In this document: positions 47,430-56,470 of the stretch, piece after piece
Layout of the letters: the number at the start of each line of letters is the position of its first letter
How positions within the stretch are numbered: the stretch's first letter is position 1
DNA from: Chitinophagales bacterium
GTDB taxonomy: Bacteria > Bacteroidota > Bacteroidia > Chitinophagales > UBA10324
DNA length: 64,000 bases
Direction: 5' to 3'
NCBI GenBank assembly: GCA_013816805.1
Contig: JACDDS010000004.1
Coordinates: forward strand, 102,051-166,050
The notes under the pieces: generated by a model
Told to the model about the DNA's origin: nothing
The model's database searches: none
The model's input: only the letters and a program-made list of their open reading frames with translations
Translations under genes and position numbers: made by a program

Positions 47430-48455
47430 TTAATTAATCAGTCCAATTTTTTTAGAATGAAGAATAGCTTCTGAGCTATGTTGGTATAAGAAGCAATGGA
47501 CACCAGATTGTTCCAGTTCAGATAATGCAGATTGCACTTTTTCCCTGTTCTTTTGATAAACATCACGTATATAAACTGCGCGTATTTTACCTGGAAAATG
47601 GTATGCTATTGAAGCATAAATTTCGGTATCATGCTGTGAGCTATCACCTAAAAGGACAAATTTTTGCTGTGGAAATGCTTCGAGTATTCTCACTATCCTG
47701 GTGAACTTAGTAGCATGGTTATTCTGACCTGTTTTTAGTATCTGGTTAAATACTTTCAACTGGTTGAGTAAGAAAACACCTTCAGGAAATCCGTTTACCC
47801 TATGGAATTCAACCAGGTAATCATAAAGGTTCCATTCACTGCTGGACACATAAAAGAAGGGGTTTGGAACTCCGCTTTCTGTCTGTGCATGCATTAGCGC
47901 CTTATAATGATTCACTACTTCCTCAAAAGGTTTTCTGCTGCGCGCATTGTTTGTAAATAACACCGATAAACGTTTCCGGAGGTTAGAAGAATGGGAGACA
48001 AGAAATGTATCATCTATATCGGAAATAAATCCTGCCTGGGTAGGATGAGGCACGAATAATGAGCCGGAACCTGAAGTAATAACAGTATCGGGCATGTTTA
48101 TCAGTTCCACTTTTACATTGTGCCATCCGAAAGAAAATGGTTGAGCAGGTTTCCATTCCAGCTTAAAAAAACCTTCAGGATCCGATCTTGTGCTAATATA
48201 TTCCCCGTTTGCATATATACGGAGTGTTGCACCGTTTACCGGCCTGACAATAAATAATCGGATTAGTGAAAAAAAATTAACGAATAGATTTTGCCGGTAA
48301 TTTTTTCTCGGCAGTGGCCAAAGCGATAAAACATGACCCAAAATAGTGACGTGCTCGGTATTTCCGTACCCATTGTAAACCTTTATTGCGACCTCATTGC
48401 TAAGTCGCAACCAATTCAACAGCATCCGTTTCCATCTACCACTGCCTTTTTTCAA
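47430..48455 (-). CDS. APP1-like phosphatidate phosphatase domain protein
   Basis: The protein has 341 residues. An N-terminal beta-rich part (LRIYANGEYISTRSDPEGFFKLEW, about 75-150) is followed by an APP1 catalytic domain with the HAD-like nucleophile motif GFISDIDDTFLVSHS (about 165), FFYVSSSEWNLYDYL, the GVFLLN segment and FVLLGDSSQHDTEIY. APP1 proteins dephosphorylate phosphatidate to diacylglycerol in yeast; bacterial members are less studied. It diverges from a diacylglycerol kinase gene only 62 bases away. Confidence 0.85.
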   Translation of the reverse strand: MKKGSGRWKRMLLNWLRLSNEVAIKVYNGYGNTEHVTILGHVLSLWPLPRKNYRQNLFVNFFSLIRLFIVRPVNGATLRIYANGEYISTRSDPEGFFKLEWKPAQPFSFGWHNVKVELINMPDTVITSGSGSLFVPHPTQAGFISDIDDTFLVSHSSNLRKRLSVLFTNNARSRKPFEEVVNHYKALMHAQTESGVPNPFFYVSSSEWNLYDYLVEFHRVNGFPEGVFLLNQLKVFNQILKTGQNNHATKFTRIVRILEAFPQQKFVLLGDSSQHDTEIYASIAYHFPGKIRAVYIRDVYQKNREKVQSALSELEQSGVHCFLYQHSSEAILHSKKIGLIN

Positions 48456-48517
48456 TTGTGCATTGTATTTATTCTTTCATTAGTTTGCGCCTGTAACTCT
48501 ATAATCATTCTTAAAAT

Positions 48518-49423
48518 ATGATTGATAGCCACCAATCAAAATTACTATTTGTAATTAACCCAATATCCGGCGGAAAGGAAAAAACCGATTGGGAATCGGG
48601 AATAAAAGAATACTTCCATGGTTCTTCACTTGATATTTATTTCCATGGACTGAAAGGGGAAAATGATGCAATACTGCTGAAAGATCAGATTTCGAAATAC
48701 CAGCCTGATAAAGTAATTGCCGTTGGAGGTGATGGCACGCTTAAACTCGTAGCTGAGCAGTTGTTAAATACCAATATGGCATTAGGAATTTTACCTGCAG
48801 GTTCAGCAAATGGAATGGCGAAGGAGCTGGGTATACCCGATGAGATTAATGATGCACTGAACGTAATACATAAAGGCACCATCAGGAAGATAGATGTAGT
48901 AAAAATAAATGATAATGAGATCTCGCTCCACCTGAGTGATATAGGTCTGAATGCATTACTTATAAAATACTATCAGAAAGGAAAAAAAAGGGGCATGTGG
49001 GGATATGCCAAAGCAATATTCAGAGTACTTTCTGAGCGGAGATACATGAGGGTAGAAATGCAAATACCCGGACAAAAGCTGGTTCGTAAGGCATTTATGG
49101 TAGTGGTAGCAAACACCAGGACTTACGGGACTGGTGCCATTATTAACCCGGAAGGAAATCTTTATGACGGAAAGTTTGAATTGGTAGTTGTAAAAAAATT
49201 ATCTGTTCCCGAGCTGTTTAAAATGATCCTGACGCATCAATCTTTTAATCCCGAAAAAATTGAAACAATACAAACAGAACAAGTCGCTATTACTATTCCG
49301 CACAGATCCTATTTTCAGGTAGACGGGGAATACCGTGGCAAGGTAAGAGGGCTTGAGGCCAAAATTTTACCCGCATCCCTGAACATGCTATTGCCGATTC
49401 AATCGGATTCATACAAGTCTTAA
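48518..49423 (+). CDS. Diacylglycerol kinase family lipid kinase
   Basis: The protein has 301 residues, the normal length for DagK/YegS/BmrU proteins. FVINPISGGKEKTDWE at the N-terminus, the nucleotide-binding motif AVGGDGTLKLVAEQLL (about 70) and ILPAGSANGMAKELGIP (about 95) are diagnostic. The C-terminal lobe ends in YFQVDGEYRGKVRGLEAKILPASL. It phosphorylates diacylglycerol or a related lipid. It is followed 54 bases later by a PAP2 phosphatase on the same strand. Confidence 0.93.
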   Translation: MIDSHQSKLLFVINPISGGKEKTDWESGIKEYFHGSSLDIYFHGLKGENDAILLKDQISKYQPDKVIAVGGDGTLKLVAEQLLNTNMALGILPAGSANGMAKELGIPDEINDALNVIHKGTIRKIDVVKINDNEISLHLSDIGLNALLIKYYQKGKKRGMWGYAKAIFRVLSERRYMRVEMQIPGQKLVRKAFMVVVANTRTYGTGAIINPEGNLYDGKFELVVVKKLSVPELFKMILTHQSFNPEKIETIQTEQVAITIPHRSYFQVDGEYRGKVRGLEAKILPASLNMLLPIQSDSYKS

Positions 49424-49477
49424 AAAATCTTTTTAACAGGATGAGCAGGTTGATTTCGAGGAAAACTGACTTATAAT

Positions 49478-50158
49478 ATGAAAATTAAATTTCAAAATTT
49501 TCTTAAGACCATTACACTTAAGATTCTTGTTGTTGCTGTGTTGTTTGTAGCTTCTTTATTTTTATTTGCCGTAATTGCTGATGAGGCTGTTTTGGAAAAT
49601 GAGAATCAATTCGATCAAAAAATATTCGGCATAATTTCTCCATATTCAACACCTAATTTTGTTCATGTAATGGAGAAAATTACTTTTTTCGGATCAGGTG
49701 AATTTCTCCTACCTGCTTACCTTTTGCTCGCATCCTATCTATTTATAAGAAAAAGATTCCGGGAGACAATAGACATTGCTGTAGTGGCATTAAGCAGCAC
49801 CGCTTTAACCTTTGCCCTGAAGCAGTATTTTCACCGGGCAAGGCCAGACCTCTCTCTTATTAAACGCCTTACTACATTCAGTTTCCCCAGCGGCCATACC
49901 ATCTCCTCTTTCATCCTGAGCTTTATTTTAATGTATGTAATCTCTAATACGGGATTGAAAAAAGGAATAAAATGGTTGCTCTACTTTTTACTATTATCGT
50001 ACACGCTTTCGGTAGGACTAAGCCGAATTGTATTGCATGTTCACTATCCTACAGATGTACTGGCTGGCTATTGCTTTGCACTAGCGTGGCTTATTATAAG
50101 CTTTTGGGCACTGCAAAAAATACCTTTTACTAAAATTATTTCTAACCCGGTACGATGA
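49478..50158 (+). CDS. PAP2-family membrane phosphatase
   Basis: The protein has 226 residues with about six membrane segments. All three PAP2 motifs are present: KQYFHRARP (KxxxxxxRP, about 118), FSFPSGHT (PSGH, about 138) and SRIVLHVHYPTDVLAG (SR-x5-H-x3-D, about 192). It dephosphorylates lipid phosphates such as phosphatidate, phosphatidylglycerophosphate or C55-PP. Its place after a DAG kinase suggests lipid-phosphate turnover. Confidence 0.93.
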   Translation: MKIKFQNFLKTITLKILVVAVLFVASLFLFAVIADEAVLENENQFDQKIFGIISPYSTPNFVHVMEKITFFGSGEFLLPAYLLLASYLFIRKRFRETIDIAVVALSSTALTFALKQYFHRARPDLSLIKRLTTFSFPSGHTISSFILSFILMYVISNTGLKKGIKWLLYFLLLSYTLSVGLSRIVLHVHYPTDVLAGYCFALAWLIISFWALQKIPFTKIISNPVR

Positions 50159-52892: not shown

Positions 52893-53849
52893 ATGAAGAA
52901 AACAAACTGGGCGGTGTTGCTTTTTTTGTGCTGTGGGTTTTTCAACATTTGCTGCATTCATCATCCTAAAGTGGAGGAACACAAAAATATTGATAGTATT
53001 TCCACTACTGCTGGTTCTTCTTCAAAGTATCCATTCTTGTATGATCTTGATCATCCTTCCCAAAAATTAAAATTACCGGATGCCTTAACAGAGATTTCCG
53101 GAATGGATGTTTATAAAGATGCAGAACTGGTTTGTAACCAGGATGAAAAAGGAAATGTGTATTTGTATGATGTTAATAAAGGAGAATTGGATAAACGCAT
53201 TCCGTTTGCCAAGGACGGAGACTATGAAGGTATCGCTAATGTGAATGACACGATTTATGTTTTAAAAAGCGATGGAAAACTTTATCAGCTGATTAATTTT
53301 AATAAGCAAGACCAAAAGACGGTGGTTATAAAGACATTCCTTCAAAAAGAGAATAACACGGAAGGCCTTTGCTTTGATAAAAAAAATTACAGGCTCCTTA
53401 TAGCCTGCAAAAGTGACCCGGGGGCAGGACTCAAAAATGTTCGCGCCATATATTCTTTTGATCTGAAAACAAAGCAGCTTTTACAAAAGCCGGTATTTAC
53501 AATTTCCCTGGATTCCATAAAAAGATATATTGCCAAAGTTTCTCCAGCCGAATTTACCGCCGAAGAATTACGTGATATTATTGATGCAAAAAAAGGAGAT
53601 GTAGCCTTCCAGCCGTCTGATCTTGCCATTCATCCCATTAGTGGTGATATTTATGTTATTGCTACAGTAGGGAAGCTAATGGTGATTTTACATCCTGATG
53701 GTACCATTGCTTTTATCAAGCAATTTTCAGCTACTGAGTTTAAGCAGCCTGAGGGAATAACATTTTTAAATGATGGAACCATGTTTATTTCTGATGAGGG
53801 CCGAAACGGGCTTGGCAACATTTTAAAATTTAATTACCAGTCAAAATGA
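52893..53849 (+). CDS. SdiA-regulated-domain (YjiK-like) secreted propeller protein
   Basis: The protein is about 318 residues from ATG 52893 (TTG 52878 is less likely). The N-terminus (NWAVLLFLCCGFFNICCIHH) is a signal sequence with Cys residues that could be a lipoprotein site. The body has propeller-type motifs of the SdiA-regulated family: LTEISGMDVYKDAELVCNQDEKGNVYLYD, DYEGIANVNDTIYVLKSDG, NNTEGLCFDKKNYRLLIACK, HPISGDIYVIATVGKLMVIL and PEGITFLNDGTMFISDEG. Function is unknown. Its stop overlaps the start of the barrel gene (ATGA), indicating translational coupling. Confidence 0.85.
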   Translation: MKKTNWAVLLFLCCGFFNICCIHHPKVEEHKNIDSISTTAGSSSKYPFLYDLDHPSQKLKLPDALTEISGMDVYKDAELVCNQDEKGNVYLYDVNKGELDKRIPFAKDGDYEGIANVNDTIYVLKSDGKLYQLINFNKQDQKTVVIKTFLQKENNTEGLCFDKKNYRLLIACKSDPGAGLKNVRAIYSFDLKTKQLLQKPVFTISLDSIKRYIAKVSPAEFTAEELRDIIDAKKGDVAFQPSDLAIHPISGDIYVIATVGKLMVILHPDGTIAFIKQFSATEFKQPEGITFLNDGTMFISDEGRNGLGNILKFNYQSK

Positions 53850-56470
53850 AATACAGCAGCGGGATAAATATTTCTTTTCTTTCCAGATGTTTCGTTCGTA
53901 GTTTTTCTTCTTGTGTGTTCTTTCTTTTTTTTGCAGTCAATGCCTTTTGCCAGTATCCGGATTATACCGATTCCACTATTACCATTGCTGCCAGTGATAA
54001 ATATCATGCTGAATTTTTAGGGAAAGTGTTGTTAGGAAACCATTACCGGAATATATGGTCGGCACCGGTTACACTTCACTATTTAGATATGGGCGTGGAT
54101 GCAGGAGGATTAACCCCACTTAAACGGGGCGGAGGTCTTCAGACCAAATCCCTTCGGCTCATGGGCGCAGATAGCAATCAGTATGTAATACGAACCATTG
54201 ACAAAGATCCATCTAAGACCGTTTCACATATTTTTCAAAACACCATTATTACCGATCTTATCCAGGATCAGATTTCTGCCTCACATCCTTACGCACCGTT
54301 AGCGGTTTCGAAACTTGCAGATTATGCTGGTATTTATCACACCAATCCCCAAATTTTATACATGCCCGATGATCCCCGTTTAGGGAAGTTCAGGAATGAT
54401 TTTAAAAACAGGATGGTACTGTATGAAGTGAGGGAATTGAATTCACAGGATGTTGGTCAGGGTCCAGGAGAGCTAAAGAAAATTATCAGCACATTCGATC
54501 TGTATGATAAGATGCAGAAGAGCAGCGACAACCGTATTGATAGCCGGTTTGTGCTTCGCTCGCGGTTATTTGATATGTGGATCGGTGATTGGGACCGCCA
54601 CGAGGATCAATGGCGGTGGGCCGAATTTAAGAGTGAAACGGGCAAGCTATTTCGCCCCATCCCCAGGGACAGGGACCAGGCATTTTTTACTTTCGATGGG
54701 CTGCTTCCTACATATGCAAGCCTCGATGTTGCTGCCACTCGTAAAATGCAGCGTTTCAGGCCGATGCCGGTTAGCATAAGCTGGTTTAATTATAATGCAC
54801 GTTTTTTTGACAGGGCTTTCTTGCCATCTCTCAATCGTGAAGATTGGAAAGAAGTTGCTGATAGCTTAATGACAGCAATATCTGATGAAAATATTAATGA
54901 TGCCTTTAAAACCTGGCCGGATACTATTTATAAATTATCTGCGCCAAGAATTATAAATGTCCTGAAAGAGCGAAGAAATAACCTTCCGGTTATGGCGGAT
55001 AAATATTATGCCTTTCTGGCCCGTCAGGTAGATGTAGTTGGTTGTGATAAGGATGATTACTATGAGATAAAAAGGTCAGAGCCTAACGTTACCGATGTTT
55101 CCGTTTATCAGTATATGAACGGAGAAAAAGGGGACCTCACCTTTCACAGGATATTTAATGCGAAAGAAACAGAAGAATTAAGATTATACGGATTAGGAGG
55201 AAATGATGTATTTAACATTTCCGGCAAGGCAGATAAAACTTCTTTGCTGCGTATTATTGGGGGGAAAGGGATGGATAGTATTATTGATCACTCAACGGCT
55301 GGTGGATTTGGAAAGCGCACACGCATCTATGATTCCAGGGAGGGAAACTTTATCTCCCTAAATAACGATGCTGCAAACAAAACTTCAGATGATACCCTTT
55401 TGAATACCTACAATAGAAAGGAATTAAATTACACGTTTAATGGGTTAAATCCTGCTTTCGGTTTTAATATTGATGATGGGGTTTTTTTAGGTGTCAGTAT
55501 AGCCCGGACTACTTACGGGTTCAAGAAATTTCCATACCAGAGTAAACAGATTTTTTCCGGTGGGTTAGCGTTTAGAACGGTTGCTTATAATTTTAAATAC
55601 CGTGGTGATTTTACAGATGTTATCGGAAAAATGAATTTTGTAGTATCCGCTGATGTGCAGGCCCCGAATTTTCGTCAGAATTTTTTTGGTTATGGAAATG
55701 AAACTCCCCAGGATTCAGAGTTCCAGTATTATAGACTACGCATCAACCAGATTTTTTTATTTCCTTCTTTTGAGTTAGGATCAGGTAAGCTTCATTTTTT
55801 AATCGGTCCGCTGTATCAACAGGCAAAGCTCAGGCCGGATAACACTGATAAAGTAATAGATGCTCTTCCGTTTCTGCAGGAACAGGTTAACAAAAGAAGA
55901 AATTATCTGGGCTTTAATACCGAGTTGGAATTTCAAAAATTCGACCGTGATACATTACCCCATATCGGCTTCGGATTTTTTATGAATACCGGAAGCTTAT
56001 TTGAGTTGAATGGAACATCGATAAATTTTGGATTCTTAAGAGGTAGTGTTGCACTCACCTATACTTTCTATAAACCCTTCCGTCTTACCATTGCTACCCG
56101 GTTTGGAGGAGGCCATAATGTGGGTGATTTCGCTTTTTATCAATCCAATAACATTGGCGGAAGAAATACGGTGAGGGGATTCCGGGGAGAGCGTTATTCC
56201 GGTCGCAGCGCATTGTATAATAACCTGGAGGCTCGGGTAAAGCTCTTTCATTTTAATGCTTATATCTTTCCTGCGGATATTGGTATTTTGGGTCTGGTTG
56301 ACAATGGCAGAGTTTGGATTGACGGAGAGAGCTCGGATAAAATACACACCAGTTATGGCGGAGGCCTTTGGATAAGTCCCTTTGGATTAGCGGTGCTCAC
56401 AATCACAGACTCCTTTTCTGATGAGCAGCCTAACGGATTATTGAATATAAAATTAGGTTGGTGGTTTTAA
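53846..56470 (+). CDS. BamA/TamA-like outer-membrane barrel protein with N-terminal kinase-like motifs
   Basis: The protein has 874 residues. After the signal peptide (about 15-37) comes a soluble region (about 40-400) containing YVIRTIDKDPSKT (~113-125, a possible ATP-binding Lys strand), MWIGDWDRHEDQWRW (D250-R251-H252) and PIPRDRDQAFF (D275, D277). The DRH and later Asp resemble the catalytic loop and metal site of HipA/Fam20/CotH-type kinases. The second half is an Omp85-type barrel with TVRGFRGERYSG (V776, the VRGF loop-6 motif) and a terminal Phe. It is translationally coupled to the SdiA-like gene. A kinase function is inference; no similarity search was possible. Confidence 0.7.
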   Translation: MKYSSGINISFLSRCFVRSFSSCVFFLFFAVNAFCQYPDYTDSTITIAASDKYHAEFLGKVLLGNHYRNIWSAPVTLHYLDMGVDAGGLTPLKRGGGLQTKSLRLMGADSNQYVIRTIDKDPSKTVSHIFQNTIITDLIQDQISASHPYAPLAVSKLADYAGIYHTNPQILYMPDDPRLGKFRNDFKNRMVLYEVRELNSQDVGQGPGELKKIISTFDLYDKMQKSSDNRIDSRFVLRSRLFDMWIGDWDRHEDQWRWAEFKSETGKLFRPIPRDRDQAFFTFDGLLPTYASLDVAATRKMQRFRPMPVSISWFNYNARFFDRAFLPSLNREDWKEVADSLMTAISDENINDAFKTWPDTIYKLSAPRIINVLKERRNNLPVMADKYYAFLARQVDVVGCDKDDYYEIKRSEPNVTDVSVYQYMNGEKGDLTFHRIFNAKETEELRLYGLGGNDVFNISGKADKTSLLRIIGGKGMDSIIDHSTAGGFGKRTRIYDSREGNFISLNNDAANKTSDDTLLNTYNRKELNYTFNGLNPAFGFNIDDGVFLGVSIARTTYGFKKFPYQSKQIFSGGLAFRTVAYNFKYRGDFTDVIGKMNFVVSADVQAPNFRQNFFGYGNETPQDSEFQYYRLRINQIFLFPSFELGSGKLHFLIGPLYQQAKLRPDNTDKVIDALPFLQEQVNKRRNYLGFNTELEFQKFDRDTLPHIGFGFFMNTGSLFELNGTSINFGFLRGSVALTYTFYKPFRLTIATRFGGGHNVGDFAFYQSNNIGGRNTVRGFRGERYSGRSALYNNLEARVKLFHFNAYIFPADIGILGLVDNGRVWIDGESSDKIHTSYGGGLWISPFGLAVLTITDSFSDEQPNGLLNIKLGWWF

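Follow-up and report, generated by a model that had tools for sequence, protein, structure and literature searches.

The window analysed here, a stretch of 64,000 nucleotides from a Chitinophagales bacterium, contains an open reading frame encoding an exported protein of 874 amino acids, present as a single copy in its genome and called the kinase-barrel protein below (Table 1). The stop codon of a beta-propeller gene overlaps its start codon (ATGA, 53846-53849), by which the two genes are likely to be translationally coupled. Pfam and NCBIfam searches of the protein recognised the C-terminal barrel alone, and residues 76-391 matched no Pfam family. The region of homology shared by the kinase-barrel family begins just past the putative signal peptide.

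Table 1. Features of the kinase-barrel gene and its upstream neighbour, in window positions; the last row uses positions within the loci of two relatives.
Feature	Position	Strand	Basis
SdiA-regulated/phytase-like beta-propeller gene, likely lipoprotein	52893..53849	+	PF06977, E 9.1e-10, above cut-off
Kinase-barrel gene, putative outer-membrane protein of 874 aa	53846..56470	+	ORF, homologues
Probable signal peptide, residues 1-35	53846..53950	+	hydrophobic stretch CVFFLFFAVNAFC, by inspection
Predicted kinase-fold domain, residues 76-391 (model residues 42-357)	54071..55018	+	AF2 pLDDT 88; CotH 5jd9, Z 14.5
Gly-rich loop RGGGLQTK, residues 94-101	54125..54148	+	conservation; between N-lobe strands 1 and 2 in the model
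Strand-3 basic residues R116 and K120	54191..54205	+	122/122 homologues
Putative catalytic loop DWDRHEDQWRW, residues 248-258	54587..54619	+	HHalign to CotH, CotH alignment, conservation
Putative metal-binding motif PIPRDRDQAF, residues 271-280; D275 at the CotH D251 position	54656..54685	+	HHalign, CotH IPWDYDATWG, conservation
Predicted all-beta linker domain, residues 394-514, with GLGGND and GGKGMD motifs	55025..55387	+	DSSP of the model: strands only
Predicted 16-stranded Omp85 barrel, residues 531-872	55436..56461	+	AF2; TamA 4c00; NF047779, E 6e-16
VRGF motif of Omp85 barrels, residues 776-779	56171..56182	+	sequence; R777 and G778 invariant in the family alignment
Three-gene kinase/phosphatase/barrel loci	L191 3449-7594; L192 2341-6329		

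Fold and conservation of the N-terminal half

The original prediction had taken the N-terminal half for a HipA/Fam20-like kinase, and the motifs on which it relied are present in the sequence: D248-W-D250-R-H252...Q255-W-R-W258, then P271-I-P-R-D275-R-D277-Q-A-F280, with the basic strand YVIR116-T-I-D-K120 upstream. AlphaFold2 (AF2), run on residues 35-515 with 54 sequences, predicts a two-lobed kinase (pLDDT 88, pTM 0.89), the lack of which would have refuted that reading. Foldseek searches with this model retrieved CtkA (3e-6), HipA (3e-5), CotH (3e-5) and Fam20 (8.5e-5); the TM-scores are low (0.2-0.35), partly because they are normalised to the whole 481-residue model, in which the linker is counted. 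A second structure aligner placed CotH (5jd9) at the top (Z 14.5, rmsd 3.9, 247 residues aligned), with a match covering model residues 42-355 and hence both lobes, followed by PI4KII (Z 13.9), CtkA (13.5), HipA (11.2) and Fam20 (10.3). Rows less than 1 Z apart are regarded as ties, so that PI4KII is tied with CotH. The clan named in the original prediction is matched by the fold, with CotH rather than HipA or Fam20 as its closest member.

The link to kinases is visible solely by fold and profile-profile comparison. The Pfam model of CotH (PF08757) did not match the 874-residue protein at E up to 10, nor did the Fam20 model, for which the similarity is one of fold only; HipA_C (PF07804) had no Pfam match in the protein or anywhere in the genome of the window, and PDB sequence searches with the single protein and with the family profile found no kinase. 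HHalign comparison of the family with 28 Bacteroidota CotH sequences gave a score of 37.8 (p 5e-4) over 180 C-lobe columns, against a maximum of 18.9 among 20 column shuffles and a reversed profile used as controls. The register places GDWDRH on the CotH GxWD and PIPRDRDQAF on the CotH IPxDxD, and D250 and D275 align with the catalytic and metal-binding Asp of CotH. A Bacteroidota CotH protein aligned to Bacillus cereus CotH reads NFDGFVHN ... IPWDYDATWG with 23 residues between the aspartates, which is the D228-D251 interval of CotH; the D250-D275 interval of the window protein is 25. Both D228 and D251 are needed in CotH, mutation of either abolishing activity (PMC7821199). By this alignment D250 would be the catalytic Asp and Q255 would occupy the metal ligand position, the activity itself being inferred. 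Comparison of the family with HipA is weaker (p 0.027), yet in register. Since the CotH profile match is confined to the C-lobe, it is not settled whether R116 or K120 is the nucleotide-binding residue.

A match at E <= 0.001 is present in 139 of the 296 Bacteroidota genomes sampled; about 29 of these matches are weak and mostly barrel-only (counted from the match table), and the kinase region is kept in roughly 110 of the 296 genomes, about a third. R116, K120, D248, R251, H252, D275 and D277 are invariant in 122 Bacteroidota homologues, D250 is present in 121 of them, and G95, G96 and Q99 of the Gly-rich loop are found in 118-121. The position of Q255, which is that of the metal-binding Asn, holds Q in 119 homologues and N in the other three. 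The set is rich in Hymenobacter, and 39 representatives below 70% identity give the same picture, with values of 0.92-1.00 at the catalytic positions. This conservation is not due to chance. Loss of D250, H252 or D275 among homologues would have counted as a refutation of the original prediction; the kinase-like reading of the N-terminal half is instead supported, while kinase activity is inferred without an assay. It is conceivable that the fold survives as a pseudokinase that serves the barrel for binding or as a scaffold, given that no activity is known and that Gln is found where Asn is usual. We consider this quite improbable, because even homologues of only about 30% identity keep the catalytic residues unchanged, as a dead enzyme would not be expected to do, and because Q255 alternates with N only.

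Barrel, linker and the phosphatase of relatives

The full-length AF2 model (pLDDT 85) predicts 16 strands within residues 531-872, and the barrel matches TamA (4c00; Z 26.4, 293 residues, rmsd 3.0) as well as BamA and FhaC. Together with the VRGF motif and the C-terminal aromatic (WWF), both named in the original prediction as barrel signatures, this meets the feature test for an Omp85 protein. The linker consists of strands without helices in the model, so that it holds no POTRA-like beta-alpha-alpha-beta-beta unit, and Pfam found no POTRA in the window protein. The classical definition of Omp85 proteins calls for at least one POTRA domain. Subfamilies lacking POTRA have been accepted (PMC4104836). 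The linker motifs GLGGND and GGKGMD (55190-55276) resemble RTX-type calcium-binding turns, and their Asp residues are invariant in the family alignment.

Most relatives have about 1250 residues, with a PF00149 domain at the N-terminus, giving a phosphatase-kinase-barrel architecture; by inspection, the motifs of this domain (GDAG, GDNxY, GNHD and GHxH) are like those of purple acid phosphatases. The window lineage has the kinase-barrel form. Pfam detected no PF00149 in the window protein, and the phosphatase domain of the relatives was not found in a search of the window's genome, which was run without a positive control. On the family tree, three or more changes in the presence or absence of the phosphatase fall on well-supported branches. 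Two genomes belonging to one genus encode the kinase (579 and 530 aa), the phosphatase (411 and 405 aa) and the barrel (402 and 400 aa) in three consecutive genes that abut or overlap, a strong indication that the three modules act together as a single functional unit. One of these loci (L191) has ABC-2 permease genes and MgtE at its flanks. A Riemerella metallophosphoesterase was considered as a related protein and set aside; it is a T9SS effector according to a review and is probably unrelated.

PF00149 is the domain by which Heinz and Lithgow (2014) defined the 'Metallo' or metalloprotease subfamily of Omp85 proteins (PMC4104836), a label repeated in the PlpD paper (PMC11116518). PF00149 is Metallophos, the calcineurin-like phosphoesterase family, which that classification treats as a metalloprotease. 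The phosphatase-kinase-barrel relatives are probably this subfamily, a judgement made without comparison with the published tables, and as a phosphoesterase defines it, the kinase appears to have been overlooked there.

The N-terminal enzyme domain of PlpD on its Omp85 barrel has been shown to be periplasmic (PMC11116518). From this analogy and from Omp85 topology, the kinase most likely lies on the periplasmic side. An autotransporter-like role of the barrel, translocating the kinase to the cell surface to act on outside targets, would fit its close likeness to TamA and FhaC and is how PlpD was long thought to act (PMC4104836), but it is unlikely in view of the periplasmic PlpD domain, the periplasmic N-termini of Omp85 proteins and the existence of the three modules as separate genes.

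Gene neighbours

The pairing of the kinase-barrel gene with an SdiA-like propeller gene, proposed in the original prediction, is borne out beyond the window, where the propeller matches PF06977 (E 9e-10): the two genes adjoin on the same strand in 26 of the 38 sampled genomes that hold both, with the propeller gene nearly always upstream. It occurs beside both architectures, and its presence next to phosphatase-kinase-barrel genes rules it out as a stand-in for the missing phosphatase.

Other genes recurring across the fetched loci encode HD-PycTM (77 loci), PPK1 (44) and class III cyclases (14), the first two counts being dominated by Hymenobacter. In Fulvivirga, Niastella and others, an HD-PycTM gene overlaps the start of a kinase-barrel or kinase-only gene or is separated from it by 14-53 bp. 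The fusion of HD to a PycTM domain recurs across Bacteroidota, and at one locus (L052 3297-8556) a class III cyclase gene (Pycsar PycC models), an HD-PycTM gene and a kinase-barrel gene follow one another on a single strand. The window's genome has its HD-PycTM gene elsewhere, not at the kinase-barrel locus; this gene adjoins, by inspection, a SixA-like phosphohistidine phosphatase gene on contig C5 (L159 5685-7464). PPK1 genes are found close to the phosphatase-kinase-barrel gene at L050 (750-2738) and at Hymenobacter loci, and upstream of the kinase gene at L056 and L057. PADLOC did not recognise the kinase-barrel proteins; Pycsar models do match the cyclase and PycTM genes that lie next to them in relatives, and there is no evidence of a defence role.

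Genes for an APP1-type phosphatidate phosphatase, a YegS-like lipid kinase and a PAP2 phosphatase lie side by side in the window (47430-50158), less than 6 kb from the kinase-barrel gene. This cluster was dropped as a functional partner, its genes not being found near relatives. It bears nonetheless on a further explanation, that the kinase fold is active without being an ATP-dependent protein kinase and instead uses another donor (polyphosphate or lipid phosphate), AMPylates its target or phosphorylates lipids in the manner of PI4KII. The tie of PI4KII with CotH in the fold search, the 44 loci with polyphosphate kinase genes, the lipid-phosphate genes of the window and the lack of a known ATP pool in the periplasm all fit this explanation, which we regard as possible but doubtful, as many of the PPK1-linked loci come from one genus and the lipid genes of the window were not seen beside relatives.

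Proposed phosphate transfer and comparison with known systems

We propose, with a probability of roughly two in three, that this protein is a kinase module anchored in the outer membrane, most likely facing the periplasm, that phosphorylates an envelope substrate. The signal peptide would lead to export, the TamA-like 16-stranded Omp85 barrel would anchor the protein in the outer membrane, and the all-beta linker would carry the CotH/HipA/Fam20-clan kinase domain, in all likelihood at the periplasmic face. The phosphoryl donor may be bound through the Gly-rich loop and R116/K120 and the metal placed by Q255 and D275, with D250 as the putative catalytic Asp; the target, likewise inferred, would be an envelope protein or lipid. 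Of this proposal, the sequence, its conservation, the variation in architecture and the linkage of genes are directly established, the fold and barrel rest on prediction, and activity, periplasmic location, donor and substrate are inferences. The window copy, which has no phosphatase, may work with the co-transcribed propeller protein. As most relatives carry a purple-acid-phosphatase-like domain in the same polypeptide, the ancestral form was probably able both to add phosphate and to remove it. Points against a kinase module are Q255 in place of the usual Asn, the restriction of the HHalign match to the C-lobe and the failure of Pfam kinase models to match. To our knowledge the periplasm has no ATP pool, which leaves the phosphoryl donor unexplained; polyphosphate is a possible alternative, for which the gene neighbourhood is the only hint.

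The presence of both kinase and phosphatase in the family points to a phosphate-transfer system that has gone unrecognised, located where ATP is not known to occur. A more extensive picture, serious but still tentative, is that of a widespread outer-membrane phosphorylation machine of Bacteroidota, in which a kinase, a purple-acid-like phosphatase and an Omp85 barrel, joined in one chain or operon, would reversibly phosphorylate envelope molecules without a known ATP pool and would be tied to cytoplasmic-side cyclic-nucleotide genes (class III cyclase, HD-PycTM) and polyphosphate genes. The literature searched, whose coverage excluded most subscription journals, yielded no description of a kinase in an Omp85 protein and none of a kinase fixed to the outer membrane of a bacterium. 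If the kinase is active, a large share of Bacteroidota can phosphorylate envelope molecules outside the cytoplasm, and the phosphate donor there becomes the question. The record on the Omp85 'metalloprotease' subfamily is also corrected, its defining domain being a phosphoesterase and a hidden kinase very probably lying within it. With kinase and phosphatase both present, reversible regulation is testable in genetically tractable bacteria.

Among known systems, CotH (PF08757; PDB 5jd9, 5jda) is the best fold match; it shares the order of catalytic and metal-binding Asp at similar spacing (23 versus 25) and the I-P-x-D-x-D motif, and it too acts outside the cytoplasm. The window protein differs in lacking a Pfam match, in its DRH loop with Q rather than N at +5, and in its fusion to an outer-membrane barrel, and in relatives also to a phosphatase, in a Gram-negative envelope. 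HipA, CtkA, Fam20C and PI4KII share the clan fold (Z 10-14) and a DRH or D-x-H catalytic loop, whereas their sequence link is weaker (p 0.03 for HipA) and their cell location and partners are different. The Omp85 'Metallo' subfamily resembles the phosphatase-kinase-barrel relatives in combining PF00149 with an Omp85 barrel without POTRA; the region between domain and barrel is left undescribed there (PMC4104836), and the window protein has no PF00149. The patatin-Omp85 protein PlpD likewise has an enzyme domain tethered by an Omp85 barrel, but PlpD is a phospholipase with POTRA, whereas the window protein combines a predicted kinase with an all-beta linker.
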